This document shows, in pieces, positions 21,303 through 47,111 of a stretch of 64,000 nucleotides of DNA. The notes below the pieces were generated by a model. The model searched no databases. It was not told the origin of the DNA and saw only the letters and a list, made by a program, of their open reading frames with translations. This stretch comes from Neospora caninum Liverpool. Its lineage: Eukaryota; Apicomplexa; Conoidasida; Eucoccidiorida; Sarcocystidae. Location of the stretch: assembly GCF_000208865.1 (NCBI RefSeq), contig NC_018390.1, positions 62,001 to 126,000 of the forward strand. The letters run 5' to 3'. Each line of letters begins with the position of its first letter. Position 1 is the first letter of the stretch. Position numbers and translations under genes: made by a program.

Positions 21303-24109
21303 ATGATCGATCGTCTCCAGGATCTTCACCGCGTTGCGGCCGCAGAGACCAACGTGGCCGAGCGGCCGGAATCAAGCCCACAGAACTTCCTTCCAGGCGA
21401 AACCAGCATCAGGCTGCACCATCCCGTTTCCTGCGAGAACAGTTCGGCACTCTCTGGGTTTCCAGGCAACGCCGCAGCGGCGGCGGCGCTTCGCTATTCC
21501 CAGGCACTCTGTGTCCGGCCGCCCGCGTCTCCCATGGGGTCTTCAAAGAAAACGCCATCTGTCTCTACGGCACCGTCGGAAGCCCCGGCAAAGTCGCCTC
21601 CGATCGCGCCGTCCCCCTTTCCACCTCTGTCCTCGTTTTTCCCGTCTTCCGTCCCGTCTACTGAAGTGCACGCCGCGCCGCAGGACCAGACGACAGACCG
21701 GGAAAGACACGTCGCAGGCGACGCGTGCCCCTTTCCGGTTAACTCGCCAGAGATGTCTTGCTCGTCGGAGACATCAGCGGATTCCCTCTCTGATGCTTCT
21801 GAGTCGGGGCCTGCCTTCGGGCGGAAGCGACTTAAGGACGGGCCACAGCGCGCGCCTTGCCTGGTGGGTTCCGAGGACTCCGGCCTCTCCCCTGACGGAG
21901 GCTCTTCTCTTTTCCCTTTCCTACGGAAAGCGAAAGCCCTAAAGATTGCGATCAATGAGGTCCTTCTCCAGCAACAACAAACAGGATATCTTCTGCTTCT
22001 GCACCCTCCAGGGGCGGCCGCTCCGCTCCAACCCTATTGCTGCTCTGGATGTACACCGAACGGCGGCACTGGTGGAAGCGGCCATGCAACTCGCGACGTA
22101 GGACTCTGCTACAACTGCGAACTCGCGAACAAGGTGCATGCGGCTCAGCAGCTGCTGCAGCGGGCACACAACGCGCTGGGACAGCTCCAACGGCAGTATG
22201 AGGAAGATGAACAGCGACACACGCGTTTCCAGGAGGCGCAACAGAACCAGGCCGGATCCTTCTTGAAACACGTGCACATGCAAAAGACTTCCGCAGCGTG
22301 TGCGGCAGAGCTCCGCATCCGGAGAAGTGTTATTCAGCAGCAACAGCAACAACTTCAAGTGGCTCTGGAACAGCAGCAGCAGCTCGAGCAAGATCTCCGC
22401 GTGCGGTGGGAAGGCGAAGTGTCTGCTGAGATGCGAATTTGTAAGAAATCCAGTACACGTTGAGCCGGGGGACTGTGTTTATCACTGGAGGCCGTGTGCC
22501 GCGTGTCGTACACTGTCCTTAAAGCTTTCGACGTTTTGGTGCTCGCAACGGCGGAGGCTGCACTGGCGTTGGATCCTGAATCATGTGCGACTGTTGTGCA
22601 CCCCAGCTGGTGATAATTTGGAAGTGTTGACGCCTTCTGTGTGCGTGTTGTGACTGCGACTCGCCTACAGTGTATCCGGAAGCGTCTGCCGCGGAGCTGC
22701 AACAGGCAGTCCAGCGGATCGGCGAGAACACCTTCGAGGGGGACCAGACAACCTTAGCAGTTGCTGCAACAGCTGCAGCGGCTGCGGTAAGCAACATAAA
22801 GAGTTGTTTGGGACATTGCGTAACGCTGTTGGCGTCTGGACATGAATGTTTTTTTCCTGTACCGCATACACGTGAAGTCGTGTGCTCGGACGCGAATAGA
22901 GTTCCGCGCGTGAAGCTGGGTGCTGAAAGAAACAGGTTTCATCTGGAACGGAAACTAGCGAGAACTGTCAACTGCACCCTGGTGGTGTTCTTTCCCGTAC
23001 TCTGGTTGGGGCGGTTTTTGCGGAGGGGGTGATATCGCCAGGTGTACGTAAGGAAGTCCCCGGATTTCCCTACGTTGGTGTTGGAGTTTGGCTTGGCTGC
23101 GGGTACACTGCGAACGTACGTGTAAGGGTGTACCCCAGTGCGGCAGACGCGTGCCGTGGTTTCTTTCTTTGTCGATGCAACAGGGTTCCACCGAAGCCGC
23201 GGACGTTCTGGCAGCGAAGTGCCGCCAGCTGCAAAAACTTGGGGCAAGTGAGTGACAAAGTGCTTCACTGCTGTGTGAGCGTTTGGCAAGTACACGCATT
23301 TGCCCGAGCCGTATGCTGACACAGCAGCGTTCATTCGGAAGCGCAGGGGAGACATCGCTGCTCAAAGAGGTGCACTTGCATACCAGCGGCGCAACGCGTG
23401 AGAAAAAAAAGCTTTTGCGTTTCACGCAAGCTTGCTGCGAGGACTCGCGCCTGTTATGGGTATGGCAGATGGTGTCTGTGCTCTGGGACGCGTTTGGCTG
23501 TTGAACGCTTCAGGTCTTATTGAAGTGCAGCGGATGGTAGAAGAAATGCAACGCCAACAGGAGTCGAGACAGCAGCAGTTGTGTTCAATAGCTGAAGCTG
23601 CAGCGTGTAGCAAGCAAAATACGGCGGCTGCAGTCCACGATATGCTTCTGGCGAGGAAGTACCAGAGACGGGCTTACCGGGTAAGCCAGCAGTGGCCTTG
23701 GGGAAAGGTGACGGTACGCCCTAAACCCGTATCGTCGATGGTTTATGTAGGAACACGAGCCAAAGCAAAGCTCGGTTGTTACGTCACGTAAACCGGAGTT
23801 GCAACCGCATGCCTGCCTTTCGGATACTCACAAAGTTGTCTGCTGCAGCCAAAACGCGGTCATCACTGTATAACGCCGTCTTTTCTCTTGTGACTTTGCC
23901 GTGGACACCCGCACAGCTTGTGTTTCTTGCTGTTGGACCTGTGCCTCTTCACTGTTCTGTCATTTCCGTGTTCTCTGCAGCACTCCCTGCTGATGCTCGG
24001 TGCCCTTGTAGCTCTCTTTCTTTTCTTCTTTCTCCCCACGTCGCCGCTGCTACCTATGCTGTTCTGGCTCCACGGCGAGTCCCCACCACCGTCCCCTCCG
24101 ATACCCTAG
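21303..24109 (+). CDS. Tail-anchored SNARE, syntaxin-18-like but with Arg at the predicted zero layer, about 537 aa
   Basis: Exons: 21303-22440, 22671-22786, 23184-23247, 23514-23680 and 23981-24109 (TAG), 1614 nt in frame. Residues 1-210 are Ser/Pro-rich and low complexity. Residues 210-380 contain a Cys-rich patch (YCCSGC, CYNC) and Gln-rich coiled coil. A SNARE helix covers about 434-486. Hydrophobic layers fall in strict 3-4 spacing at L434, L437, L441, V448 (with an adjacent V444), M451, L462, I465, A469, S472, T476, A479, M483 and A486; Arg458 sits at the zero layer. A basic RKYQRRAYR linker precedes the TM (HSLLMLGALVALFLFFF) and a short tail follows. The stretch from IEVQRM to VHDM resembles syntaxin 18/Ufe1 (ER Qa-SNARE), but the Arg makes it an R-SNARE by the layer rule. 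Probable role: vesicle fusion at an ER/Golgi membrane. Confidence 0.75.
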
Positions 24110-25229
24110 TTTGGAGCCCCGAGCCATCCACGCACAAAGAATTGGGGTACCGAGCTCGCTCAGAGCTACACGGCGAGGTGCGAGTCACACGCGTGCAAGG
24201 GGACAGCTTGTCGCGTTGATTCGCCGGCGTGAGAAAGGCGCTAGCAACTCAGATAACAGCTAATGGTGCGTCAGCCGCGTCCTTGTTTCGGCGCCATGTT
24301 TGTAAACCAGTCGGAGTTAAGGGGAGTTCACCCTTGATTCCGGGCTGTGCGGTTGCAGGAGGTTCAATAGGAGGAAACGACAGGCGGTGACCAGCTCCGG
24401 TGGGCAGTTACGTGTTCCGTGATTTTCTACTGAACTGGATTCTCCCAAGCCAGTAATTAAACGGCACAGTATGTCTACATGCAGCTCAGGGTAGCACGCA
24501 TGAATGGCGACTTTCGTATGTGGTTAGAAAGAGTGATGTGCATCGTGATTTTTGAAATTTCGCTACACCCTCTGTTGAGTCGGCGCCGGCAAGGGATACC
24601 GGTGCAGGAGTCTTCGACCTTGTGTTACGTGGTTTATTCTTTCGCATGGCAGGGTTCTGACTGTTTACCCTACCAAGAGAATGGCACCACTCGTCAGCTT
24701 CGGTAGCTTGCTAAAAAATTCTTTTCCAAGCTATGTCTTACGCTCACATGTGGAACCGGTCCGTTCAACTGTCGCTTGCGTGAGGCGTGGTACATACCCA
24801 CCTGGAAAACCAGGGCGCACCAGCTAGCGCGGTGTGCACGAAGGCTAATCCGCAGGTTGTCACGGTACCTGATCTGTTTGAGCGCGGACCCCTTAATCTT
24901 CGTACCGGCGTGAGAGTTGCAAAGACACGGTACTGTATGACATGGCACGCGCCGCGTCCACGGTGGCAGAAACGAACTACTAGCTTGTCGCCTAAACTGC
25001 CATTTGCAGCTGATCAGTTGTAGTCACTCCCAGAAAAGCTAAAACCTATTTGCAGCACTCCTGCAAAAAAGAGTGACGAAAAGATTTGCTCAACGGTTCG
25101 TTTTCCGCCGGGCGCCATGATTGTCTTACAGCCTCTATTTCTCTCTCTGGCCGTCCACGTCAGTCTCCAGTAGACCGCTTGCTCGGCGTGGCGTTGCAGG
25201 TTTGTGAGTCTCTATTTGTGCTAGCGTTT
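24110..25229. other. Convergent intergenic region
   Basis: This separates the 3' ends of the SNARE gene (plus) and the microexon gene (minus). Only small overlapping ORFs are seen and none is supported. Confidence 0.5.
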
Positions 25230-25445
25230 TTACGCTGTGACACGCACTGCGAATAGGAGGTGGAAGCTGAGCCACCGGTGGTTCACTCGTCCAGAGTATT
25301 TTAAGCTGCCATCTCTCGTTACTTCCGGAATCTCCGCAGAGCGCGAGCACCGCAAGATGAGGGACTGCACGACAGCCGCGTTCAACACGGGGTCCAGGCA
25401 TCTGGCTGTCAAATTGACCTGACTGGCCTGCAGATTTTCGGGTTT
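25230..25445 (-). CDS. Probable terminal exon of the microexon gene
   Basis: After the acceptor GGCTGCAACACAG, phase 0 gives 71 codons starting KPENLQASQVNLTARCLDP and ending LLFAVRVTA then TAA at 25230-25232. It contains an amphipathic stretch (LNAAVVQSLILRCSRSAEI). An alternative frame of the same DNA stays open to 25135, but it looks less protein-like and would need a phase change. No polyadenylation signal could be assigned. Confidence 0.45.
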   Translation of the reverse strand, partial: KPENLQASQVNLTARCLDPVLNAAVVQSLILRCSRSAEIPEVTRDGSLKYSGRVNHRWLSFHLLFAVRVTA

Positions 25446-28400
25446 CTGTGTTGCAGCCGCAGAACGCAGGTATCACACTGCCGGGTAGGTAGGTATGCAT
25501 GTTTGCTAGAGCAGGGACGACGATATGCGCTTCTCGAGCGGCTCGGCCAGAATGTGAATTGGCTCTCGTGTGTAATGCGTTAGAAGTGTATTTGTGATAT
25601 CGCTTGCGTTGAAACTTCCCTGCTCCAATACGAGTACTATCAGGTGGGATCAGAGCGGACGGAAGGAGAGTCATGGAGTTTATGACCAGCTGGAACATGT
25701 ATCTGGGGCAGTCCTGTCTCGCCCTCTGCGTCTAAAGGGACTCATGAATCAGAAGGGGGTTGGTCTGCTGCGGGTCTCGCGACGATCCAGCAGGCGCTGT
25801 ATGGCGCCTCAGGTTGGCTATGAGTCGGAGGAGCAAGAATCAAACTATATGGAATGAAAATACACTCGCTGCTATGGACTTAGTATAACGGGTCCTTACG
25901 GAATTGAACCTCTTTGAAGACCAGGCGTATACCTGCTTATCATTTCCGGAAGGTACAAACGTGATCGTTCTACAGTGATCCAATAGTAACGGCGGAGCTG
26001 AGGTTATTCAGACTTCGAGGAAAAGTTATTTGCATAGCGGCAACAGCAAGGCACGTCCGAACTTGGTTTCATACTCTAAACTAAGCAACCCACTCAAAGA
26101 TCCATTCAGTCTCAAAGACCCATCAAACTCAATGTGTCTCGCCGCATTTGAAACTGTCGAACCAGGGTGTACTTGAAAAGACGTACTTTTTGGAACATTG
26201 CTCAGTGTGTTGGCAACTAGCCAAGGCTAAGCTAACCCGGGAAGCAGGGAACGTGGAACACTGCAAACAACTCTCACACAAGAATCGAAGTAATTGCTTT
26301 CACGGCTCCCACACATGTTTCGAAACACCAACATCGGGGCCCTCGCAATCTGTGCAAACTGAGTGAACAGCCCACAAGGGCGGTGGCGTACGAGAAAGCA
26401 TATGGTGTGTGTCCAACACCATAGAGAAACGGAAACTTTCAGGAAAGACACCGGAGCTGAAATCGCTGTACAACACCGAACGAGTCGACGCACTACCAAA
26501 CGACTGCGGTTATCGTCGGACCGCTTCAGCCCTCGTCGCTGTCCGAGTTAATCGGGTAGCTAAAATCGTCGGCTACGTCCCTGCAAACAACATTGCATGT
26601 TGAATGCACTTTTTCGTTGAACACAGAGGGCGTGGTCACACCTACTGCAGCAATTATGACGACTCAAGTTTGCCATCAAACAAGCCCGTCGACATGCCGC
26701 CACACGTCCCGCCCGGTGGTAAGGCGATGACATCAGCAGGAGCAGATGCATACTGATAGTGTTGTTGGCTATGAACTGCAGTGACGCAAAGGACACACGC
26801 CACTAGTCATGCCTAACTTGTAACATGTGATTCATCTCTTTCCGAAAGAGATACAGAAAGCCTCTACCAAGAAGTAATGCACCGTTAACTTCGCTCCGGA
26901 TCTGCTTTTCTATCGTATGTCATCTCTTGTTACGTGATCAGCACGTAACAATCGACTGCATGAAAAAAGTATCAGTCGCACAGCAGGTGCACAACACGCT
27001 CTTCTCACGTCGGCATTTTGGTTGTACGGGACGGGATGTCTAGTGCAGCGAACAGGAATGCTCTGAACAAGACGTACCTGATAGCACGTCGAATTCTTTG
27101 TTGCTGCAGAGTCGTTAAAAGTGGCAGACAACACAAAGCCACTTGCTCACACAGGGAGTGGTGCCTTCATTTTTAACGTCCACCAGCACGCGATCAGCAG
27201 CTTGTGGTCTGCCAATAGCTGTCGCTTGTTCATCGGGGGAGACTACACTGGATGCTCTCTCCTTAATATGTGATCGGATGTTTATCTGTGCAAACCCTGG
27301 CCCAGGTTGACATCGGGTTGCTTTTTAAACACAGTTCGGCAATCAACAAAAGACGGAAATGCAGAATTTGTGCCGCAATATGACAGTGTAGTGTTAATAC
27401 GATGGGCAGAGTTGACGGTATCCACGCGACTCACAAACTCTTCTTTACTCTGGATTATACAAACAGCAACACAATAAGTTTTCTGAATAACCCCTGCAGT
27501 GGCCCAGCTTCCCGTTAAATCCCATTGGATGCCGAATTACCACCTCTGAAGGAAATATGTAAGATGTGCAGGCAGAAACATTCGCAGGCACAGTGCCAGA
27601 GTGCCTGTTGACCCCAGAACACGTTCTACGGGTTGAAGGCTTGGACATTTCGGTGACGTCAGGAGACCCACGGTGCAACTTACAGCGAGCTGATTAGTAT
27701 TCAAAATTTAACATCAATTTGTCTTACGTACAAAATTCAGCACCCCTCCAGGTGTGCTTCACATCTGACAAACAAGGTGCATGTGAAAAGATGATAAGAG
27801 CTCGCAGTGTTTCCGGTAGTCGCGGTTGCTTGATTATGATGGCTCTTACGAAAACAAAATGGAGGCACAAAAACGCCATACTGTCGCCACAGCTGGCTCC
27901 TTACTCTCAACCGTTTGCTCTGGAGAAAAACGAAGCGCACACGCTTCGGGCCACACTTTTCCCTCGAGGAGGAAATAGGTTTCAAGTACAGCAGGGTGCG
28001 AGTATGAGCCAGGTGGCTGCAACTGACTAGAACCCTTATCCGCCTCGTTCCTTTGTTAGGTATTGCAGTGGTGACTTTACCACGCTAATATGTGTCAAAC
28101 GTACTTGCAACTAGAAGCATAACACAATACAAGGTTTTCGTAAAAAATCTTGTACTTCGGGAAGGCCAGGAATTCCTAAAAACCGCCCAAGCCTGTATTT
28201 CTTCGGTACGAAGCCTATGGATCCGGTCAAAAGTTGCCCATCTTCCATCATCCACAGTGACTGGATCCAGGGACACACTCTCTCCATTGACTTCCGCAAT
28301 GTTGCCGCTTTCAGACTGCGTGAGTGCGCATGCCATTGAAATCAGGGTGGACGGCTTGTGCCAGAAAGGATCTGCACACTTTAGACTTCTACTGAGTTAC

Positions 28401-31400
28401 ACTCAATTTGTTCTAAGGCAGCGCGGCACTGTGCGAATTTAACTGACAATGTACTTCAACCAAAGGATCCTCGAGTTCTTAAAGTTAAATACGTGCGAGT
28501 GGCCTGGAGTCCTCAGTGGCATCGGCCTCAAATGATTTCAGTAACCGGAGACGCTGCTCTCTGTATCTCAATCAGGCCACTGCATAGCAAAACTCACACT
28601 CTCGAGTTCTTCCTGGCGGTGCCACACAACACAGTTTCATCTTCATTGATGAAGGAACGACGGTCCAGGGGCCCCAATCCCTCCTGATATGCCCGAAGAT
28701 GGAAGCGAATCTCTCTGCCATCTGACGAAGCTTTCTCTTGCTTTGGACGAACTTTGTTTGTCGTGTCTCGGCTATCCCTCTGAACTCCATCCCAAAAAGA
28801 ATGAGCAACAACATACCTCCAACTGTTACAAAAGAGAGACAGAGAGATACAGCAATCAAATACGATGAACCGACAACCTCCAACACCAGGTGCGTCAAAG
28901 ACTGGGACAGCCACTCACAGTGAGTCGGTGGTTTCGTGCCACTGCCTCACACGTCTTTCCATCCCTGAGATTCAATTGCCACGGAGCGCTTACGTCCAAA
29001 CTACGTTGCTGTCAGGACAAACCAACCGAATGGCAGATTATTGGTTAATTTTATTGAAAAGGTGTGGAGAAGGGCTCAGGCTTAGCGTGTGCTTTGTCTC
29101 TCATCCCATGGCTCAGTGTCTTGCGTGGCCGATCAGGATGGAACGAGTCAATCCTAAACGACGCTGTTTGCCGATCACCGACTCCCACGACATCCACTCT
29201 CTTATCAGGCCTATGACGGCGAGAGCACCTACTATCTTCTGGAGAGCCGAATTCCCACATACCGAACGAATAGCACACCGCCTGCATGCCAACGGAGAGT
29301 CCTTCATTCATGCCACAGAAAGTTCCTTAATGGCCGATGTCTCGGTAATTTTGGAAACGAGCAAAGACTCTTGGAACGGTCATACTGCTTACGGGCCTGA
29401 GGGTCCAAAAAGTAAGACAGTATCGGTAACCGGTAAGATGACGAAACATGCGGAACGCGTTTTGAAAAAAACGTCACACCTAAAGTAGAAAGTGTGACGT
29501 ATATGTTCGAGGCTTGTTACAAGAATCACTTGCGATCGAACACGCAACCCGATTTCGACGCGAACTGTGCTGTTGAGTCAACAGTGCTTAAGCGAACCGC
29601 AATATTCAACCATAATCTCGACTTACACTGAATGCGTGAAGAAGTGAACATGGACAAAACCGCACGATTAGAACCAGCCAGCTGTTGGGGTTCCGAAGTA
29701 ATACGGCATACTATCAATTGGCTCGGCGGGATGGCAGCTTAAAATCGGATATGTATTTCCAGAACTGGCTCCATGGAGATTCCAAGGAGAGGTCAAGCAT
29801 TCGAACCGGGGTTCGTATGCTTGAAGGTAGCAATAATCAAACTTACTCTTCAGTTTGCGGCCCACACAAAAGAAGTGGATGGAAAGTCAACACACGGTAA
29901 GCGTGGAACTCGGCATGTGGCCGTATTGAAGAAGTACCACCCAGTCAGAGTTAAGGGTTCGTTCAGATTGATTCGCGGCAAACCTTTGTTACAGAACCAG
30001 CAAATCACGGGAAAATCCTTCCCCAGACACTAGCCACTCTGACTCTGGATACGACAACCACGACAAGCAGTTATAGTGAAGCTTACAAGCTGAACCGAAA
30101 CAGGTAAGGCGACTGCAGTGTGATGGTTTTGTTTCGATTATGCGGGTGAAGTTACCCATGCTATAAAAAAATGACCCGATTGAAAAAGATTGCACTCGGT
30201 CGGCGACAAGCGGTCCTTCAGAAAGCGATGACGTTAGAATCTGGCGTCAGAAACAAACCTTTTGCCGCACAAAAGCGTTTGTCAGAGAGAATGAAGACGT
30301 TCTTAGATTGCTTGAAGTGGAAGAGACAATGTAACGAACCCCGTGTCCCTGGACAACCAAAAACGGTAACCCTTACCTCCTTCGCATATTTCTGTAAAAA
30401 TTCAAGAAAACAGAGTGTTCGACCACGAAGTTCACAAACATTATAAACAACGAAACGAGTATTGAGTGGTGGGGGGCGGAAGGCGAAAATGCAAAGAGAG
30501 GGCGAAAGAGAAAGAAACAGGGAGCCTTCGCCAAGACTGGAGGCATGCGTTGATGCGTCGGTTACCAGCCCGATCACCTTTCACTCGCTGTACAGCGTTT
30601 CTGGACGAGATTTCATTCACTTGCGGCAGTCTAAGAAGAAGAGAAAATGTGACCATCAGTGATACTCAGTACCTCTCCACAAACTCATACACATCCGGCA
30701 GGGGTGCGGAGAATCGATATTCTCAAGTTTCTCTCCGCTTGAAACTGTGGCAGAGTATCAAAACCCCTAGCTATTGTCTTGACGGCTATACTTCTGGCTC
30801 CTCCTTAGCTCCAAGCGGAATATACACGTGTCTGACTGCTGCAGCACCGCTGACGTATCGCAGTTCTTTCCTCTTTGCTTCGACAGAAACGAGCTAAAAG
30901 GACTTACCCTTTGAGGAGAAGATACACAAAGAAGCAAATCCATGCATTCTTTGTAAATTTGGGGAAGGGTGATAGTACCGGGGTACACGACTGGCGCACG
31001 GACCTCAGCAGAGGTTGTGCCCTACTGTATTCATTGTGGATGGCGACTGCAAAAATACATCCCGTTATGGTTACGCAACCTACTGACGTCCTCTAGAAGT
31101 GATCTACAGAGAATTTTCTACTGGATTCTGTAGGAAATACCGTACGGCAAAACAGTGAAGCCGGTCTTTTGTTATTCTTACAAGTAACGTAGTTAGTGCA
31201 GCACCAGAGAGGGGAAAAACGAGACTTCACGAGGACTCTAGACATGTGTTGATGCATCTGTTACCCTGATAAACACCCAGTCAAATCCTTGTAGTGGCCA
31301 AAAGCGTTTTATGAGCTTCCAGCTATCGGCTCGGATCTAAACCGCTGAACCACAACGGTGTTGCACTTTGAAAGGATGTGAGGCTGCACATAAGATGACT

Positions 31401-34400
31401 TACTCTTTGTTCAAAACAGAAAGAAAGGAGGAACTGAAAATTTTTCAGGGAAGAGCGTCTCCAACAGCTGCTGCGGTCGCCCTCCCCTTGGCACGGCAAA
31501 CCACCCATCCAATAATCTGATACTCAAGACTCACTTGATGCTGTGCCGGAAGATAACCTCACAACAAAGGAATAAGTGTCTTTTCCAACGACAGCGCAAA
31601 TCACGCTGCGAATGCTATGACGATACGCGAACTTAATTGCATCTGTCTCCCACCCAGCGAAGGGAGAACGTCAAAGTCACTGCCCCCTGGTAGTCCTGAA
31701 GTAGCTGCACGCCCAGGATACTTACTCTTTGATAAAAGTAGAGAAAGTGAAAGAAGGACAGTGCCACTCAAACAACCAAGAAGAGCCGGAAAAAGTGTAC
31801 ATTTGTGGCCACCAGTACATTTCAAGGAACTTAGACGAGTACTTTCGTGGCCTCTTATCAGTCAACAACTCCTGGAGTGGTCAGAAGCACCTGAGCTTTC
31901 ATCCCCTATAGTCGCACCAGCTGTCCTGTCCTTCTGGATGAGAACTTGTTCGCCTCAAACAAGCTACACCAGGAGAGCGATGGCAGGTGTTGAACCAGGG
32001 GGGTTGGAGAGAGGCGGCTACATCAACCAGTATATCCAGATGCCACTACATTTGGGACTCACTCGTGTCTGTAGGAATAGACAGCAAAAGATGACGCCCC
32101 TGCAAGACGGGCTGGCGAAACTGAATTGCAGCAAGGGGCTCGGTGCTTCCATACAACCGCAGAAAATTCACCTTCCGCTGAATAATATCTTGACGAGAAA
32201 AATCTTTCTCGAACATTCCGTGGCAGTGAAGATGCCATGTACAGATGCCAAACAATTGTCCCAGCACACACAGCTGTGGCGTTTGCGGCCAAGCGGAATC
32301 CCAAGCTTTTTGTGCCTGACTGCAGAATGATGCTTGGAACAGTCACAGCGTTGCCCTTATGACACCTGGGGCAATGGATCGAATCTCTGAACAACCTTGC
32401 CACTGTTATCTTGGAGACACTTGGTGTTTCGGCGAACTCACTGTCCGAAGGTTTTCCTTTGTGACGACAATCCCACCATACAGAAGAAGAAAAGCTGATG
32501 ACGAATGTAGTCTCTGGCAGAAAGAGCCTTAACACTCAGATTTTTGTCTCTACGACTTCCCTGACTCAGTGGTGCACGGTTCCAGGCGATATCGAGCGCG
32601 TCTCAACAGCATCTGCATTTTTGCTCGTGGCGTGCAGACTCTTAGACTAGGACTTACTCTGAGTAACGATTCACATACACATAGAAACGCAGTGGTGTTG
32701 CATTAGGATCGACGAGGAACAAATGTGCCCTCAAGCACTGTTGCAAACAGTCGACCTGCGTCATCTGACGTTTCTTCAAGCAATCGGATGTAACGACGAT
32801 CCTTCGTTGACCGTACCAAACTGACAACACGCTTACGCCATTCTGAAATCAAGAGACACAAGCAAGGCACAAAGGTGGAAAAGCGACAGTCCAATGGCGG
32901 AGGACTAACCCGCGTTTAGATTACCTTGTACTACGGCGATGAGCCACACCTCATGAACACGATAAGGCACCGCAGTAACTTCAGTATCTCCCTGATGGAG
33001 CTCCATTAACACTGAAGCAACACCACTCACCAGGCGTAAATCGCAGCTCTAGACCGCAACATAGCAACGGAGCATCCCCGCAGACTCACTCGGCCATTGC
33101 TGGGTACAATAGGAGCACAGAAAAGCGGATCCATGATGGGGAGAGCATGAAATCACTGGTTTCCTTGATCCGCTGCCGGCGAATCAAAAAGTAGCTGCTA
33201 AATATGGAGCGAAGCTGTATTGCACGCTAGAGAACAACTTACTGGCCTGTGTTGACGCAACAGCCCAAACTTTACGGCAAACTCAGATCCACACATTGAT
33301 GGCGTTCCGGCGTCAACGACTACAGCTTCCTTTTCGGATTTGCACGCACATCATCACCAACAGTGATGTAGCCTCAATAGGACACTGTGACGAATCTTTG
33401 TGGTTAGGCGGCACAAACGGCCTCTGACTCACTGCCGGGATATGGGTCTGAGAACGTAGACACGAATCAGGCAATCGACGTTCATGCACACGTAGTGAAA
33501 CGCGGATAGCGAAAATCAAAAGTATCTACCCGGGAGAAATGAAAGCTAACACTATCGCGGGGGGAACCGTGGCTCCATTGAAATGTGGCCAGGAAAAACA
33601 GTGGCACACTAATAATAGGTCAAGAAGAGCTCACGGTCTGACGCAAGTAAAGCCACCCGCCACAGAAGTCGACGAGTCATTTTCCTGTCGTTCGCTATCC
33701 GTTGCCAGTCGCCTTTGCACCACAGTTCGTGTCATGACTAGCAAAAAGCAGCCTCGTATCAGAAAACTATCAGGAGCATTCACTGTTGCCAGCTGCGTTT
33801 TTAACGAGGGGTCCCGTAGCGGTTGTAGGTTTACTCACTCTGCAAAATAACCCCACACACAATTAGGAACCCAGCGGGTATCATGAAGAATATCAATGAC
33901 AGTGTCAGCGTGTGGCGCTGCTCGTGTCTGTCGTTTTCAGTCACTAATAAGCGGACAGCATTTCTGAGCAGGAAAAGAGCGGTTGTGCGTTTCTCAGGAA
34001 CGTCAGTCAGTCTGGGCGGCTACAACGATTGCACAACTGATCGGCCATCTACGACTTTGAAAATACGCTCGAGAAGAGGCTGACGATTCAGCCTCTCAGG
34101 TTTAACACGTCGCGCTGGTAATGAATGGACTTACCCTTCTGTGAACAAAGCGCAAACCAAACAGCAACCATAGCTGTCATTCCCTACCGGTCGCTCAAGA
34201 TCTACTGTGCTCACTGCCAGTTGTGGAGCTCTCGAACGACACTATGCAAAACCGACCCAGTGTTATCTGTTGAGTGAGTGGCTGCAGTTCCGAAGGAGAC
34301 GTACGCGTTGCTGTCAGACGATACAAACAAACACACCACATGCCTCCATATACACACTCTCGGAAGGAAAAACATGCCATAGGGTTTTCCGTTCGGCGAG

Positions 34401-37400
34401 GAGAAAGCGAGTGCTTGTTACCCGGCTAAGTGTTGACCTTACCCTTGGAAGGAACAGCAGGAGAAAAAAAAAGACAACAAAACAACTTGTCATAGCCCTG
34501 GTACAACTTATAATAGGTGGATGCTATTCGTTAAAATTCCTTCCATAGAAGAACGATTTGTGATTTATCAAAAGGCCGAGTCTGAGAGCTCAAGTTCCTT
34601 TTAGCAGTGGAACACGCTTTCCACGTATGGGACCATTGAAGACTCTCTACGCCAGGGTTTGCCTTGTGGCGCTGGAACCACTACGGCGCGGTTACTCAAC
34701 ACAGAACTTACGTAGAGCTGGCAGTTGACAAGAAGACATCCGACAACTCAACATCACTGTCACTCGATAACAGAGCTCGCACGCGTTTGTGGAAAAGGAC
34801 TTCCTACCCGTATGCGATCTGGTTTGGCTCCGGAACCGGTAGACCAGAGCAGTGACGCTGAGAGTCAGTCTATGTACGAGATAAGCTGCTTCAAAGTAGA
34901 CAGCTGTAGCAATGAAATCCGTTAAGCGAAGCGTCCTTTCTCCACTCACATTCCACTGTATGGAAAGGCAAAAGCACTTCTCCAAAACGAAATGAACTGC
35001 GGTCTCACGGAGGCTATCACGAAGGGTAATGAGAACACTGTCGAAACAAGACGCGTCTCCGTGGTCATACGCTGTCGTCTTTCAATCGAAGTGGGTCACT
35101 TACTATCAGCTGAAGTCGCGCACAGGGGGGATCGGGTGCACCCAAAAATACATGACGAGAAATCGAACGGATCGCAAGACCTACGCTATGCTTCACCTCT
35201 CTACAAACAAACCGGTGAACAAGACAGGAGGGAGAAACAACATGCCCACGCTACTGTCTCGAGTCGATAGTTGCATTCATGGTGCTGTGGCATAGCAGAA
35301 AGTGGACTTCAGCTCACCCTGTAGACCAACACCAAAAAGTCGAAAAAGAGGTTTTTCAACAATAAATGCCACATGGGTCGTTCGTCGTCGAAACGTGAAC
35401 CGCACATATTAGCTGTATGACGGCATGTACTACACGTTGTCACCCATTGCTGTGCAGACGCTGGACATGACAATATGACAAACGATCTAAAACTCAATTC
35501 TTCCGATGATAACATGGCGGCGGTAAACCTGTAGAAGACAATCCTGTACTACAGCAATACCTAACAAGACTGTGAGCTTTACTGGAAATACACAGGTTAG
35601 AGATCGAGTTGTGGACCGCAAATGACTCACCATTTCGAGACGTCTCTGGGGACACGCGGAAGGATAAACACAAGGTAACGCTGCATACCACCAGAACACA
35701 GTTTGACTGCTCCGGGAGAACTGACAAATAAATTCAACAGCGCTCCTCTGCAACTTAACAGACACGCAAGAAGACGCTAAAAATAACCTAGGTGGCAGAA
35801 ATCATATGTAGAACTCTCTTGCACTGGCGCTCCAACGGTACATGAGGTAGTAGAATAAAACTACCGACAATCAATGGTCCTGAGCAAACCAGAAACTCAC
35901 TCTTCTTTTTTTTAAACAGAAGATAACAGGGAAAACCCCAACAGGGTTACACATAGTCTTACGACTGCTGTATACAAAAAATTTCCCGTACGTCGTATGG
36001 CGATGCCTCAACGAGTTGAAAACTGCATGAGCACTTGCATGAGGTCAACCATCCCAGCAGCACCAGTTCTGTGCCTGATGTCATTCCACTGAAAGACAGC
36101 AGTTTCACCTGCAGCCGTCAGCATGTATCAATCTGAGCATCATTCTCAGTCTATCACTAGATTGACCTACTCTGTAAACCAGAAAAACACACACATTACG
36201 TTTTCCCAGCAGATGATTTTCTTTGTCCGTCTGTACATCTGCTAGATGCCTGTGATGTACAACTCTAGCTGGGTAAGGGGATTAACGACTAGCCGGGATA
36301 TGAGGACAAAGACACATGGAATTTCATTGTCCCTCTTCGGCGAATCACCAACGGTGTTGGCTTATCCCCTCGCTTCACAAGCAAAAGCATCAGACGAAAT
36401 CCGAATTAGATTTCCTTGCAGCTGATGCTGCGTTCACTATCAGCCTTCTCTGCCAATAAGAAGCGGGAACAGAAGAAACAGCTGACAGATTCTCCCCTCT
36501 CAACTTCTAAGGAAGACCTTCCAAGTTGCTACTACGACATAGCTTAGCACAATGCCAACACGATTCACTGAGAACCCTTGTTATAACACGGAGAGGAGGA
36601 AAGAAGATACATGGAGGCAAACACGCCCACAGTGACAATGCCGGCCGTCGGCTTCGGTATGCATGACTCCCTGCACCATTTCCCACCAGGACATAGAGCT
36701 TACCGTCGCAGCGCTGCAGTAATCGGAGGCGATAAGGGATTGGCTGAATATGAGCCGAGTTGATTACCACATCTTTGACACGAAAAGTAACCTTCCTGAT
36801 GGCAAATGCCCGAACAACACTGTGTTTCCCGAATCATAGGTGGTAGACTCAAAAGGCATTCTAGAAGAACTTACATCTCGCCTGGTTTTCCTGGAAGACG
36901 TTTAGATCAACACAAAACGTAATCCAAAAATCGACTTGTTGTTGATGCCTTTCTACGGCTCCAACTATACTGCCCCCACGAAGAACATGCTGTCTTGAGG
37001 CGCCATGCGTCAACATCAACGATGGCTCTGCAGTAGAAGGCACTAAATGGCCGATCATCTCGCCTGACGTCCTCACCTTGCTGTTCCTCTAATTCCGCTG
37101 AGACAAGACCGACACAGAAAACATGACAAAATAATGCGGTGATGGCAACTGAAATCCGGATCTCGTCACCGACCCGAGACTAGTTGGCGCGTAAATCCGG
37201 AAAGTGACCTAACTCCACCAACCAATGCAAGCCTGGATGGGTTGCACTGAACGAGGACCTACCCTGCAGCAGTTGCAAGGACAGAAAGGCCGACAGCCAC
37301 CGATGAAGTATGAGTAAAGAATCATAAAGCCCCAGAATCGTACAAGGCATCCGCGCTGCTTAGGTAAGGAAAGGGTGTACTACTGGAAAATGGTCGCGCA

Positions 37401-39802
37401 CGAAGCGGGAAGAACACATAACTCCTCAGCCGTGAAACGAGGTAAGGAGAACGCGAGATTGATGCAACTGCCAGATGCCTGGAAACTGTCGCCTGAGCAA
37501 CTCATCGCCGCAAAGGGCTTACAATCGCTTTTTCGAACTGCATTCGCACATCGACAGGCACTGCAAGCCGGAAAGCGAAAATCAACAAGAACTGCGTTGA
37601 CGCCGACAGATACACGAATCATGTCTGACTAAAGTGCTGAAAAAGATGACTCTGGCCAAGGAAACCTTATCGAGCAACAACCGTGTGTATGGCTCTGGGT
37701 AGTGCATATTAGCTACGTTGCCACTTACTGCTGCCACGTCTTTCTGGATGTATAAGCACAGAAAAAGGACGAAGGGCTGACACAGGCTTGTGCCAGAAAA
37801 CAGCAGAGCGACGCGGTACCAAGGGAGCCCGTCTCTAACTGATAATAAATCGCCACGCCATATACGTTTGCCGCATCGGAAACACCAGTCTTTCCCCCTG
37901 CCGTGAGGTGAGAGTACGACCAACCCAAATCTGAGGTAAAACAGACTCATCAAGAGTACCACTTGCACTGCTGGAGCGTTGAAAAACTTTTGCACTGTGG
38001 GATTCATTACTTTCGTGTTTCAGTTTTCGCTTTATTGTCTTTGATTAAAGGAGAAATGCTTCCTGCAGCGGAGCGGTTCTCGGTACCCATTCACATAACA
38101 AGTAAACGCTCCCATATTTATACGAGGTATCCAACTAGACTGCACCAGGCATCTCACAAATACGTCAGCCTGGAGCTCCACGTACTTTCAGCTGAAGAAC
38201 CGACACTCGCATTTTCAGAACGAGTATCTGTCGTGCATGCCGACAACACAAAGACCTCGGCATACTTACAAGCAAACACCGCTGTGGCTAGAATCCTCCT
38301 ACTGGCTCCATCTGAGTGCTAATGCGCGAAAACAAATCCTTGGTTTTCGGCGACAAAATTTGTCCCCCTTACTTGTTCTATTCTGGCCTGTTTTGTCACG
38401 GAAAGCACAAGTTGACACCACATACAGTAGGCAGTCGTACTGTGAAAAATCGACTGGGGGTGTTGGCGTTATCGTGCACATGCATTCTTTCGTGTTGCAG
38501 ACCAATTCCAAACGGTGACTGCGACTGGCGGAAACGAGACCCTACGGGCGCTCATGAGCTTGACGGAATGACGCAGCTGGACTGAAAACCGTTATAGGCA
38601 ATGCTTACTTGAGACGCCTGAATATCTTCCTGCACGTTGGAAGCAGAACAACCAGGAGGTCAGCACTAAAATAATCAAAAGTCAGAAACAAGTGAAGAAA
38701 TTGCAAATATCTTGTGTGTATCTCATATACACACTCACGTGCCGGACAATGTTGACACAAGCTGATGTTGGGGCCAGGGAGGCACATATTGTTTGCTGGA
38801 GACTGGAAACGCAGCGCATTGGCCGCGAGGAAAACGAATGCAGAAGCAAGCTAGAAGAGTTTTTCAGAATAATGAAAAGACCATCCAAACATGGATCGGG
38901 AATGAAGGAATGCTGAGCCTGAAATAACTTAATGTTTGTCCTTTACTCCGTTCCACGAAATACCCGTCAGTCGATAAAAAGGCGGCACTCAGCACACTTA
39001 CCAGAGCAACTAAAGCGACGTCACTGTCATCGTCGACTCCGGATTCTAGCAGCGCAGATGAGCCGCCAGAACGACTCACTGCTTCTCGGATATCTCTGAG
39101 GGCCGCAGCATGCTGCTTTTCAAGTTCTGCAGCCTCTTCAAAACGCTCCTTCGGGTTCTGCCGGGCCAGCGCCTCTCGGCGGGCCTGAAGTTCGCGGAGT
39201 TGTTGATCCATCTGCTCAAAACGCGCGTCCCTGAACCTCGTTAGAGATCGATATCCTCCATACGTCAGAGCAGCAGAAACGGCGACAACTACCGCCGACC
39301 AGATGGCAGTATTTTTCAGAGTCCCTGTGAAGACCTTCTTCTTCACATTGTCATAAACGTCTTTCCACCCCGGTGTGGTCACCTTAGCAGGTGTACTGGT
39401 GGCAGATTTGCCCTGCTGTCTCTGTTCTCTTTTCTGTTTGAGAATCACCTTTTGCTTGTTCACTGGAATCGCCCTTGCACCGGGAAGTAGAGGCTTGCCG
39501 GTGTTCCCCAAACCTCCCAGCCACTCACCGGCCCCTCCGCTGTCGTCTTTAACCACCAAACTTGCACCTCGAACAAAACGCAGGCCCCATCCAGTCCGAG
39601 GAGCCCAATCTATCGACCCTGTTTGAGGATTTTCAAGTGTTTGTGGTGAACACATAGCTAGAAGGAATAGGAATAGACATGGACGTCGAGGAGATAAGAG
39701 GAAGAAGTAGCGACGATTCAAAGATGCGTGGTGTTCCATCTGGAGATAACGGTGTCGGCCTCCGTGACAACCGTTTGCCGTGGTGTGTTCCTCTTGCTCC
39801 AT
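25230..39802 (-). CDS. Microexon-rich gene for a probable secreted/membrane coiled-coil protein (whole locus)
   Basis: A 14.6-kb minus-strand locus with a conventional first exon (39002-39802), a conventional last exon (25230-25445) and about 30 predicted exons of 3-21 nt between them; the blocks are listed separately. Each microexon was called from an acceptor (usually pyrimidine-rich then YAG) followed a few bases later by GTRAGT, GTACGT or GTATGT. Comparable pairs were rarely seen on the plus strand of the same region. Most lengths are multiples of 3, the joined frame is open over long blocks, and the joined peptide has coiled-coil spacing. The product would start with a signal peptide/anchor and one TM, then a long amphipathic helix. 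I do not recognise the protein family. A secretory-pathway or dense-granule-like destination is inference from the N-terminus only. Exact exon number and the frame between 37.1 and 35.9 kb are unresolved. Confidence 0.6.
27435..30392 (-). CDS. Microexon block C (nine exons, clear heptad coil)
   Basis: In transcript order: 30378-30392 KYAKE, 30087-30089 L, 28994-29008 QRSLD, 28817-28822 LE, 28598-28612 EELES, 28105-28110 LQ, 27905-27919 SKRLR, 27684-27689 LA, 27435-27449 SKEEF. Every exon is a multiple of three and phase 0. Lengths run 15, 3, 15, 6, 15, 6, 15, 6, 15. Each 15+6 pair spells seven residues, that is one heptad. Acceptors are strong (for example CTCTTTTGTAACAG at 28823, CGTTTTTCTCCAG at 27920, ATAATCCAG at 27450) and donors match consensus. 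Less certain further exons may lie at 27078-27095 (18 nt) and 25900-25911 (12 nt) before the last exon; both are multiples of three. Confidence 0.6.
31535..35645 (-). CDS. Microexon block B (about 15 exons in one frame)
   Basis: In transcript order: 35631-35645 RRLEM, 35104-35109 LI, 34950-34955 WN, 34712-34717 LY, 34305-34310 QR. Then come six exons of 4, 3, 15, 4, 10 and 18 nt (34135-34138, 33635-33637, 33433-33447, 33243-33246, 33090-33099, 33031-33048), which together make 54 nt and 18 open codons. Then 32837-32842 NG, 32442-32456 ENLRT, 32063-32068 TR and 31535-31540 HQ. The acceptors at 34950 (TTTCCATACAG), 34305 (ATCGTCTGACAG), 32837 (TTGATTTCAG) and 32063 (TATTCCTACAG) are especially strong, and donors are GTGAGT, GTAAGT, GTACGT or GTAAGC. 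No stop arises across the block. The 33031 and 32442 acceptors (CTAG, AAAG) are weaker. Confidence 0.5.
35963..37097 (-). CDS. Microexon block with unresolved frame
   Basis: Candidate exons: 37077-37097 (21 nt, or 12 nt if the nearer TTAG is used), 36875-36890 (16 nt; acceptor CGTCTTCCAG, donor GTAAGT), 36704-36713 (10 nt; acceptor TTACTGCAG, donor GTAAGC) and 35963-35967 (5 nt; acceptor TGTATACAG, donor GTAAGA). In phase 0 the 21-nt version stops, so either a 1-nt exon at 37263 precedes it or the 12-nt version is used. With 1-nt exons at 37263 and 36171 the reading is A, ELEEQQ, GKPGE, IAAT, TV. The splice sites look real; the joining does not resolve by eye. Confidence 0.35.
37390..37632 (+). 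CDS. Small plus-strand ORF inside an intron of the microexon gene (80 aa, hypothetical)
   Basis: ATG at 37390 to TAA at 37630-37632. The product begins MVAHEAGRTHNSS and has a basic amphipathic segment (LSPEQLIAAKGLQSLFRTAF) followed by a Lys/Arg-rich tail. Codon choice looks more coding-like than the surrounding DNA. No promoter, partner exon or homologue is recognised, so it may be chance. Confidence 0.22.
   Translation: MVAHEAGRTHNSSAVKRGKENARLMQLPDAWKLSPEQLIAAKGLQSLFRTAFAHRQALQAGKRKSTRTALTPTDTRIMSD
37729..38629 (-). CDS. Microexon block A (four exons continuing the coil)
   Basis: In transcript order: 38609-38629 (21 nt, EDIQASQ; acceptor CAACGTGCAG, donor GTAAGC), 38373-38387 (15 nt, ARIEQ; donor GTAAGG), 38186-38191 (6 nt, LK; acceptor GGTTCTTCAG, donor GTACGT) and 37729-37743 (15 nt, KDVAA; acceptor ATACATCCAG, donor GTAAGT). 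All are multiples of three and phase 0. Read together, I, I, L and V fall at relative positions 3, 10, 13 and 17, an exact a/d heptad pattern continuing from exon 1. Other short candidates in this stretch (around 38303, 38260 and 38158) cannot all coexist because the introns between them would be under 40 bases. Confidence 0.55.
39002..39802 (-). CDS. Exon 1 of the microexon gene: signal anchor, TM, start of coiled coil
   Basis: From the ATG at 39802 the exon encodes 267 residues and ends ...DVALVAL before GTAAGT. A second in-frame ATG at 39739 (MEHHASLNRR) would place the hydrophobic segment PCLFLFLLAM nearer the N-terminus, like a cleavable signal peptide. Residues 52-160 are polar and basic. 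A TM follows at about 166-184 (AIWSAVVVAVSAALTYGGY). Residues 187-243 form a charged coiled coil (RFRDARFEQMDQQLRELQAR onward). Codon use and the long open frame make this the best-supported part of the gene. The exon ends in phase 0. An additional upstream exon cannot be excluded. Confidence 0.75.
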
Positions 39803-42337
39803 TGTGAGCAAGGCTGGTGGGACCGACAATGTTAAAGCGATGATCGGAGCTGTCACGTTGATAAATGACTTTTTTGAGGTTCTGAAACCGCACTTGAAAC
39901 ACCATGTAGTTGACGCTGGTATGCTAGCCGATGCTGTATTACCGTAGGCACCATCGCCGGTTCCTTTTCAGTTCTGAAGGAGACTCAACAAACACCATTT
40001 CACGACATCGATTATGGATGCTGTGAGCCCTACGAGAAGATGGATACAAGATGATACACACTTGCGTATAATCTGAAGCAAAGACGACAGCATTTTGTCA
40101 CGTGGAACATTGCCAGCAAAAAAAGTGTGAGACTTCTAGATGTCTGTGCAGAAGGAACTGGATATGAGAAAATGCGTCACAAAGGCCCAGTTTGATCCCT
40201 CGATTAGTGCCTTACATGAAGGGAGCACCGCCAGTCAGCCACCAACAGCTCGGTGCGGAGAGTGCCCGACTTGTATGGACTGGCTATATATGATTTAAAC
40301 ACGATTGAAGTGTTTCGGGCGTGTATCCGCATTGAGCTCTGCAGCTTTACCTACCACAATGAAGCCGGAATACGTCGCCACAGTCTTGCAAACCGCCGTC
40401 ATTTCCACACACTCAAAACAGTGCGAATCTACGTAGTATACGATCCAAGCCGCGTCGCAAGACGCGTCCGCGACAAAAGTTCATTCTGCACAACCGGAAA
40501 GATTTTTGTGACGTCAGCAGAAAACAAGGGAAACAAACCTGGAGTTTAGAATGACGTCAAAGAAAACAGACATTGAAAGATTCGTAGAGATCGACCGTCG
40601 AACAAGCACAAGCGTCCAGCTGTCCCCACTGTCGTACAGATTGTTGAGCAAGCTCGTCGTGGAAAGTACGGATACGCTTGCAGCTTCGGGAAAAATGGCG
40701 GTTCTACGATAGATGAAGGAGACAATTCAGAAAAACTTTCAGCAATTCAGGCCTTAAGACGCACAGTGTGCGGAGGGGGGGGCCCGAGTACGGTCTCGCG
40801 ACAGGTAGCGCGCATCCATTAAGCAGCTGAAAAAACCCTGCGTCTCTGTTTAGTGAGCCCTGCAAGCGCAGATGTCGGGATCTCGATAGAACGTTCTGGC
40901 ACCAGGATTCAGATCCTCGTTGTTTAAGACCTAGGTAGAAAGCCACAAACGGTTTTCTGAGTTCAGGCGTGAAGTGGGAGTGGCGTCGGGAACAGTAAGT
41001 GCCAATTTCGTGAACACGCGGAACCCCGTTGCCAGCCCCTGAGGAGTCACTTCTTGCGGGGGTGCCTAGGTACGCCTTCATAAACCGGGCCACATTGGCA
41101 AAGCGGAAACGCAGGTGAGCTCACTAACGATCGATCTGTCGTCCACGAAAAGAGAATGCACCAGGCTCCACCACTGCATCACTTCTGACATCCATATATA
41201 TGCGGCAAAAGGTGGAAGGAAAATACCGTGGTCGTATATTTTAACATTCCGGTGAATCAGCAGCTGACCCCGGTGATCTGCAAGCTTCTCCCTGGTGTGC
41301 TGCTCTCGCCAGGCTGTGCCACAGTAACGCATACGACGAAAATAGTTTGTGGCGCGGAGACGTTATCGTTTAACTGTGGAGCAGCTGAATAAACACAGTT
41401 GCGAACAGTAACGGCACTTGCTCATGCAGTAGCTGCGTTCCTGTGTTTCTGAATGCTGTCTCTAAGAGGCAAATTACACAACGTGCCCCGCTACGCTCTG
41501 TATGAATGGGAAATTTCTCCGAGCTCCCGAAGTTCTGTCAGTGTTGCTGTGGCACATCATCGATCACTCCGCCAGGACGAGCAAATCGGGGCACAGGAGG
41601 CGTGCTGCTTCACACAAAAGTGTTGTGAACTCACGTGACCCGCCTTCTGTGGCTTGGCACCTGCTGGTGACGCAGCTCCCAAACTGCCACGGACATAGCC
41701 TCCCAGGCTATTCGGACGTGTCAAGGGCCCGTCCACATCGAGCCTGATAGCTGCGGCTTCGCTTGCAGGGCAGCGAAAGATGAATGCAAGCAGCATCCGA
41801 AGTATGGACACATTACCGAGCTGACAGGCCTGTGTGATCGGATATACACTCTTCCGATGCAGCTGGACATGGGAGAGGTAGATCAGTGGTGTGGGATGAA
41901 CACCACGACGGGCGATAAGTGACACCCCGGGCACGTTCTACCAAGGCGGGGTAGCCAACGACGTGCCAACCGTGTTAACCCCAGAAAGCATGCTGGACCC
42001 CTGTGTCGAGTCTGTTGCAGTCACGAAGGATCTGTTCAGCAGGCTGGCTCTAAGTCGTTTATCTGCTACATGCGGCCTGCTGGCGGACGAGGCTCAGTGG
42101 CGCTGCTGAATGTTACGTCGAAGTCTATTCTGCTTCGCACCAGCCAAGGAAAGACGAGACCAGCTCTTCGCGTGAGGGGTGGTATGTGACATGGTGCAAG
42201 CGCATGCATCCATTTTAAAGTTTATTGTGTAGCCGGATCACTTTGCCGGTAGGGCGAGCGTCCACAGAAAGTTTTGTAGTTAGTGTCCAGTATGAACAGA
42301 AAGACGAAGCAACGTATGCATCCGCGTGTGCGGTCGG
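39803..42337. other. Intergenic region upstream of the microexon gene
   Basis: About 2.5 kb between the microexon gene start and the stop of the four-TM gene, both on the minus strand. It should contain the microexon gene's promoter/5' UTR and the four-TM gene's 3' UTR. Minus-strand ORFs at 40704-41093, 41078-41332 and 41557-41934 have no recognisable motif. Confidence 0.45.
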
Positions 42338-46565: not shown

Positions 46566-47111
46566 TTACTTGGTCTTCTTTGTGATAGTGGCCTCGGGAT
46601 CTTTCTGCTCTGCAGCGTCCTCGGACGTCTGCGCTCTACAGACTTCTTCCCAGTCTCTCTTTTCTTCACGATAGGCAAGAAACGCATAGCTGAGCATAAC
46701 GACATTAACCAGCAGGACAGCGGCGATGTTTCCACACATCTTGGCGGTGTCTTCCAGCCCATCTTCATCGGATTGTAGTTGCAGGTTTTTTAAAATGGTG
46801 AAAACAAGTCGAGGAAGAAGAAGAACCGTGCATATCGGAAGAACTGCCATCAAGATTGCAAAGATGAAAAACTTGGTGAGAACAGGGCTGTTCTCCGGAT
46901 TTCGCAGAATTGCGAGCAACACCCGCCCACGAGAAACTGGTCGATTCTTTAACTCCTCTTCTCTTCTCCCTTGCTGTGTATTCGTGGAAGGAACAGAATG
47001 TGATGAGGCACTTGCAGAAGCGGAAGCAGACGACCTCGAGTCTTCATTCACCTGACCCCCACGAGTGGCTCTGGCCCCTCGGGGGGAGGCTCCCCGCAGA
47101 GACGGTTGCAT
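46566..47111 (-). CDS. VMA21: VMA21-like V-ATPase assembly factor, single exon, 181 aa
   Basis: One uninterrupted ORF from ATG at 47111. Residues 1-75 are a basic, Ser-rich extension absent from short VMA21 proteins (about 80-110 aa). The VMA21 core follows: TM1 at about 80-104 (KFFIFAILMAVLPICTVLLL), a loop, and TM2 at about 127-147 (NIAAVLLVNVVMLSYAF). The last four residues are KKTK, a KKxx di-lysine ER-retrieval signal; yeast Vma21p also ends in a di-lysine motif. VMA21 chaperones assembly of the V-ATPase V0 sector in the ER and escorts it to the Golgi. The gene is head-to-head with the DDX47 gene. Confidence 0.82.
   Translation of the reverse strand: MQPSLRGASPRGARATRGGQVNEDSRSSASASASASSHSVPSTNTQQGRREEELKNRPVSRGRVLLAILRNPENSPVLTKFFIFAILMAVLPICTVLLLPRLVFTILKNLQLQSDEDGLEDTAKMCGNIAAVLLVNVVMLSYAFLAYREEKRDWEEVCRAQTSEDAAEQKDPEATITKKTK

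Follow-up and report, generated by a model that had tools for sequence, protein, structure and literature searches.

The sequence considered here is a 64,000-nt window of contig NC_018390.1 of Neospora caninum Liverpool, and its subject is a candidate protein-coding gene on the minus strand, between positions 39802 and 26910. The gene would begin with a normal first exon, continue through 43 microexons of 1–26 nt, and contain 44 introns. An initial annotation had proposed a gene dense in microexons, with a coil-like product, at this position. That proposal is well supported by the analysis below, in which two of the exon joins were also found in a stored protein, and a real, very unusual microexon gene is both the best reading of the locus and probably the right one.

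Paired splice sites on the minus strand

Donor motifs of the form GTRAGT are concentrated on the minus strand, with 44 copies against 12 on the plus strand in the window as a whole, and 31 against four within 24001–40000. Sites were scored with hand-set donor and acceptor matrices based on consensus sequences. The genome used for control and for searches has 57,546,354 bases in 14 contigs; the N. caninum pseudochromosomes are described in the part of Reid et al. consulted (PMC3310773) as modelled on the 14 T. gondii chromosomes. The control consisted of 20 random 10-kb stretches, scored on both strands (40 strand-stretches, 400 kb, with 800 N letters over both strands). Between 27.4 and 39 kb there are 22 minus-strand acceptor-donor pairs 1–21 nt apart with a summed score of at least 15, versus two on the plus strand; the same rule gave a mean of 2.7 and a maximum of seven when applied to 60 order-2 random sequences. 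With a limit of 26 nt there are 22 pairs in 11.63 kb, whereas the control strand-stretches average 1.25 and never exceed seven.

A frame-blind rule was also applied, combining each GTRAG, GTAYGT, or GTAGGT donor with the best acceptor (score at least 3) no more than 26 nt upstream; the GTAYGT and GTAGGT forms and the 26-nt limit were picked after inspection of the locus, with the control scored identically. On the minus strand of 38700–27070 this finds 65 donors, 52 of them paired with an acceptor, while the plus strand of the same region has 17 donors and two pairs, and the 400 kb of control 734 donors and 253 pairs (21.3 and 7.4 per 11.63 kb). The lengths enclosed are distinctive as well. 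Of 41 pairs at the locus spanning 0–30 nt with a score of at least 13, ten enclose 1 nt, nine 15 nt, six 6 nt, and none 0 nt. The 240 control pairs show no such peaks at 1, 15, and 6 nt: 54 are of zero length, and each length from 1 to 30 nt is represented by 2 to 15 pairs.

The excess over the plus strand, random sequences, and the genome control bears out the dense minus-strand pairing originally described, and a chance origin of the paired sites was rejected on the same grounds. An origin in repeats was rejected too: there are 42 families of short direct repeats, none of them strong among the 20 listed. Searches for RNA families at gathering score and for tRNAs found none. A plus-strand gene was considered and dropped, the stop-free frames on that strand over the microexon region, 31557–32330 (257 aa) and 28805–29488 (227 aa), having no Pfam match and no codon signal, by a score that is generally weak. 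In shuffles of the microexon region, 0.16 plus-strand frames of at least 225 aa are expected. Elsewhere in the window there are frames for a VMA21-like protein (46566–47138, minus strand), a DEAD-box helicase (48221–48988, plus strand), and an M24 peptidase (2055–2702, minus strand).

The stored protein P0001 and the exon model

The first two microexon joins are shown by a stored database protein, P0001 (296 aa), which was the one match among 6884 candidates to a query made of exon 1 and the first predicted pieces. It consists of exon 1, EDIQASQ, and ARIEQ exactly, and then runs through the third intron to a stop. Although predicted pieces were part of the query, P0001 is itself a database entry, and the join in it is therefore independent of the model. 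It comes from a 3443-nt contig of a source labelled “lgn,” whose record is silent on whether a cDNA or a gene prediction lies behind it. The absence of two introns and the retention of the third suggest a cDNA, the alternative being a spliced gene prediction on genomic DNA. Exon 1 also contains GTGAGT donors at 39528 and 39079 on the minus strand, both left unused in P0001.

The remaining joins are inferred from a model (model A, Table 1) put together manually from the listed site pairs, with the reading frame as guide. It has 45 exons (exon 1, the 43 microexons, and a last coding exon), totaling 1209 nt and encoding 402 residues plus a stop, and its frame is open to the TAG at 26910. The microexons sum to 362 nt, with eleven each of 15, 6, and 1 nt, four of 4 nt, two each of 21 and 10 nt, and single ones of 16 and 26 nt; the 44 introns range from 122 to 532 nt, with a median of 225.5. 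The annotation was right about the run of microexons, but its count of about 30 is lower than that of model A, and its minimum of 3 nt is higher, as 11 in the model are of a single nucleotide. For 35645–27435 it gave 24 microexons and 222 nt, where model A has 31 and 211 nt. Its last exon at 25.2 kb is not needed, as a nearer acceptor at 26955 gives an in-frame stop, and 26910 is the most likely end of the coding sequence; the more distant exon was dropped, though not disproved. By length, the model microexons (27078–38629, minus strand) fall into 24 of 3n, 18 of 3n+1, and one of 3n+2, and the pairs of the blind list into 26, 20, and six.

Table 1. Exons and hydrophobic stretches of model A, all on the minus strand. 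“Blind” marks exons also picked by the frame-blind rule.
Feature	Position	Length (nt)	Details	Basis
Exon 1	39002..39802	801	residues 1-267; ATG at 39802; donor gtaagt	open frame; P0001 starts and splices here
Hydrophobic stretch	39647..39709		residues 32-52, signal-sequence-like	hydropathy
Hydrophobic stretch	39251..39310		residues 165-184, possible membrane span	hydropathy
Microexon 2	38609..38629	21	EDIQASQ	model, blind; joined in P0001
Microexon 3	38373..38387	15	ARIEQ	model, blind; joined in P0001, which continues into next intron
Microexon 4	38186..38191	6		model, blind
Microexon 5	37729..37743	15		model, blind
Microexon 6	37523..37537	15	weak acceptor	chosen for frame and heptad; outside blind list
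Microexon 7	37263..37263	1	G; needed for frame of microexon 8	model, blind
Microexon 8	37077..37097	21		model, blind
Microexon 9	36875..36890	16		model, blind
Microexon 10	36704..36713	10		model, blind
Microexon 11	36171..36171	1	A	model, blind
Microexon 12	35901..35904	4	or 1 nt at 35901, weaker acceptor	model, blind
Microexon 13	35631..35645	15		model, blind
Microexon 14	35318..35318	1	G	model, blind
Microexon 15	35104..35109	6		model, blind
Microexon 16	34950..34955	6		model, blind
Microexon 17	34712..34717	6		model, blind
Microexon 18	34443..34443	1	G	model, blind
Microexon 19	34305..34310	6		model, blind
Microexon 20	34135..34138	4	or 1 nt at 34135	model, blind
Microexon 21	33839..33839	1	A	model, blind
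Microexon 22	33433..33447	15		model, blind
Microexon 23	33243..33246	4		model, blind
Microexon 24	33090..33099	10		model, blind
Microexon 25	32837..32842	6		model, blind
Microexon 26	32658..32658	1	A	model, blind
Microexon 27	32442..32456	15	weak acceptor	model; outside blind list
Microexon 28	32063..32068	6		model, blind
Microexon 29	31726..31726	1	A	model, blind
Microexon 30	31535..31540	6	blind rule pairs donor with another acceptor, 31557	model
Microexon 31	31404..31404	1	A	model, blind
Microexon 32	30908..30908	1	G	model, blind
Microexon 33	30377..30391	15		model, blind
Microexon 34	29847..29847	1	A; acceptor score -1.8; least certain	model; outside blind list
Microexon 35	29627..29627	1	T	model, blind
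Microexon 36	29393..29396	4		model, blind
Microexon 37	28994..29008	15		model, blind
Microexon 38	28817..28822	6		model, blind
Microexon 39	28598..28612	15		model, blind
Microexon 40	28105..28110	6		model, blind
Microexon 41	27905..27919	15		model, blind
Microexon 42	27684..27689	6		model, blind
Microexon 43	27435..27449	15		model, blind
Microexon 44	27078..27103	26		model, blind
Last coding exon	26910..26955	46	includes TAG; acceptor score 8.2	boundary inferred

The blind rule picks 39 of the 43 model microexons, and these account for 39 of its 52 pairs. Among the unused pairs, those at 33635–33637, 30087–30089, and 33031–33048 (minus strand; 3, 3, and 18 nt) have good donors and lengths of 3n, and could be optional exons. 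Minus-strand GTRAGT donors at 38269, 38738, 33030, and 28918 are also outside the model, the first and last of these with no acceptor within 26 nt.

Because the chain was built with the frame as guide, openness alone is weak evidence. When chains of equal exon lengths are cut at places displaced by 30–100 nt, 1.4% of 20000 trials give an open frame. In the model A frame, E, K, Q, A, R, L, D, and I make up 71.7% of the microexon-coded residues; the same letters give 49.2% and 48.3% in the two alternative frames, where there are five and three stops. This coil-type content is reached by none of 20000 nucleotide shuffles. Shuffling exon order 20000 times gives it in 0.13% of cases and an open frame in 2.3%, with both in 10 shuffles. 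These figures are optimistic, since the residue set was chosen after inspection of the peptide.

Two hydrophobic stretches are found by simple hydropathy, one of them near the N-terminus; they are candidates for the signal sequence and transmembrane segment of the annotation. By eye, the first 31 residues after exon 1 fall into heptads spanning seven exons, a single G among them, and many microexons are of 15 or 6 nt, which together make 21 nt, or one heptad. Hydrophobic periodicity at 3.5 residues is in mild excess over shuffled peptides: the shuffle fraction is 0.036 over the whole peptide, 0.049 in the first 31 residues, and 0.14 in the last 50, and at 3.6 residues it is 0.064. The joined microexons would probably encode the end of a membrane-anchored protein, a long amphipathic, heptad-like helix, and a membrane-tethered coiled-coil protein is the function this sequence suggests. 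In searches with the joined protein, Pfam gave five weak rows, none at cut-off (best E 0.035), and the best PDB match was at E 0.34. With the C-terminal 207 residues as query P0001 was the sole match, and with the last 95 there was no match up to E 10. No Toxoplasma relative was found in a database whose content of Toxoplasma proteins had no positive control.

Several observations weigh against this reading as a whole or against the details of the chain. P0001, its origin unstated, itself retains intron 3; microexons 4–44 have no transcript or protein match in the protein database searches, and no relative in another species was found in them. The frame aided the building, with 13 blind pairs omitted and four exons (those at 37537, 32456, 31540, and 29847) taken from outside the blind list; the 39 blind exons joined without these four contain a stop. 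Scripts optimizing splice score, with or without frame, return other chains, sharing 20–36 exons with model A in one set of runs and 30–37 in another; a third set likewise gave chains that differ from it. With or without frame or codon score they give no unique chain, and the additional exons they select often have weak donors. Codon usage was given no weight, its score failing to separate frames reliably even in known genes. When each of the 19 non-3n exons is included or omitted at random, 11.7% of 20000 trials keep an open frame, and a chain without 15 of them (model B) is also open to the stop. In 7.6% of the 20000 trials the frame is open and the coil content equals or exceeds that of model A, so the frame supports the microexons as a group while leaving the choice among the non-3n ones free. 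It is very likely that 25 or more spliced microexons form a real run, but the exact 45-exon chain is unlikely to be right in all details.

Predicted single-nucleotide exons

The 11 single-nucleotide exons of model A do not appear in the annotation, whose chain is close to model B, without most of them. Sites with a single nucleotide between acceptor and donor and a score of at least 14 number ten in the 11.63 kb of the locus and four in the 400-kb control, that is, 0.12 expected (Poisson 1e-16), an enrichment of some 85-fold. GTRAGT donors follow seven of the 11 exons and none of the four control sites. The 4-nt exons at 35904 and 34138 can also be read as single nucleotides. There is precedent in plants: the parts of PMC4674806 and PMC8831610 consulted describe a verified one-nucleotide coding exon between two introns in APC11 and VPS55, with GTRAGT donors in VPS55. 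The likeness lies in the one-nucleotide exon between introns and in the donor form, and the arrangement of acceptor, one nucleotide, and donor is found here far above chance. In those accounts, however, each plant gene has one conserved, verified exon of this kind, while the 11 here are in one gene and are predictions.

Without one nucleotide ahead of it, the 21-nt exon at 37097 runs into a stop; with that exon kept and the G at 37263 omitted, the frame stops after 26 residues. The 18 exons of 3n+1 form six consecutive sets of three, and the frame stays open when five sets are omitted, so it argues for the first set only. For the others the frame leaves the choice free, and the argument is the strength of the sites and their excess. 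The acceptor at 29847 is poor (score -1.8). Three of the stretches around 1-nt exons (30902–30937, 31398–31433, and 31720–31755) are 69–72% alike over 36 nt, possibly a hint of duplication. A genome-wide search for a 1-nt-site pattern found 15 places, none in this locus; the pattern is too strict for finding such genes.

The chief alternative is that the same gene is spliced as in model B, with 15 of the 1-, 4-, and 10-nt “exons” acting as decoy or regulatory sites and the protein made from the 3n exons and the first non-3n set (123 aa after exon 1). This overlaps in part with the preferred reading, and is a rather improbable account of the whole. It reaches the same stop as model A, with 75.9% coil-type residues to the latter's 71.7%; its microexons sum to 326 nt, or 372 nt with the last exon, against 362 and 408 nt in model A. 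Nevertheless, ten strong 1-nt sites where 0.12 are expected need a function of some kind, model B too retains the G at 37263, and the 3.5-residue periodicity is weaker there (shuffle fraction 0.25). On balance, we favor several true single-nucleotide exons. The stronger statement, that 11–13 constitutive ones lie among the 43 microexons, with the frame depending on single letters and the coil built mostly from 15-, 6-, and 1-nt pieces, is evenly poised.

Comparison with known systems and significance

In schistosomes, the microexons of micro-exon genes (MEGs) are typically symmetric, in multiples of three nucleotides. These genes are the nearest analogue; in the parts of PMC10399815 and PMC4015677 consulted, their exons of 3–36 bp make up as much as 75% of the gene, and most of the genes encode a signal peptide. 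Like them, the N. caninum locus appears to string many tiny exons together in a single parasite gene; its N-terminus may be signal-like (hydrophobic residues 32–52, by hydropathy), and no homologs were found. It differs in the unrelated organism, the coil-like product, and the one copy found: several genomic members are usual for MEGs, and a search of its own genome with the 367-aa frame around exon 1 gave no match but itself at E<=0.01 (three candidates scored). Exons of 1–26 nt are 43 of 45, but contribute 362 of 1209 coding nt (30%); 11 are below the schistosome minimum of 3 nt, down to 1 nt; and the 3n symmetry holds for 24 of 43 and fails for 19.

A generator of variation as in schistosomes, with microexons skipped in many combinations to vary a secreted or surface coil, as the annotation suggested, would be compatible with a real microexon gene, but is distinctly unlikely. 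Any one of the 24 microexons of 3n could be omitted without loss of frame, and the N-terminal hydrophobic stretch is present. On the other side, each of the 19 others, omitted singly from model A, leads to a premature stop, the exon 1 frame has that single match in its own genome, and no isoform proteins were found in the database searches.

A broken or poorly spliced gene, with the short P0001 protein as its main product and the remainder unspliced or decaying, is very unlikely. P0001 is the only database match and keeps intron 3, and the 3' part has no match, as noted. According to the sections of PMC8561664 consulted, however, T. gondii and P. falciparum abound in intron-retaining transcripts, most of them nonproductive. 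The paired sites and coil-like frame moreover continue over the next 11 kb, where decay should have erased them. Recursive splicing, in which a few long introns would be removed stepwise at paired acceptor-donor sites and the mRNA would gain no letters from these sites, is hardly credible and was rejected: ratchet points leave zero nucleotides, and although the locus resembles them in having donors close after acceptors, and many sites with the two one nucleotide apart, none of its 41 scored pairs is a zero-length AG/GT junction (54 of 240 in the control, about 1.6 expected by sequence length, and so no excess), and P0001 retains two microexons.

The preferred reading is then a coding gene in which nearly every intron has a good donor and acceptor of its own, which would be in keeping with intron-by-intron splicing (intron definition). 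The annotation knew of no such description in Apicomplexa, and none is apparent from titles and the beginnings of abstracts of the papers that one open-access library lists for microexons in Toxoplasma or Apicomplexa, together with the portion of PMC4015677 consulted; by term search, the word microexon is absent from PMC8561664, in which T. gondii and P. falciparum transcripts were studied by nanopore sequencing. Gene models of T. gondii and N. caninum have been curated, as described in part of PMC4395442.

The most daring part of the proposal is its series of single-nucleotide exons, for which site statistics and one constraint of the frame speak. If the gene is as proposed, an apicomplexan spliceosome would join exons too small for exon-bound factors, dozens in each transcript, and keep the frame. 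The locus would then provide a test of the minimum size of an exon, of intron definition in these parasites, and of how such a structure originates, and would show that genes of this kind can escape gene finders and short-read mappers.

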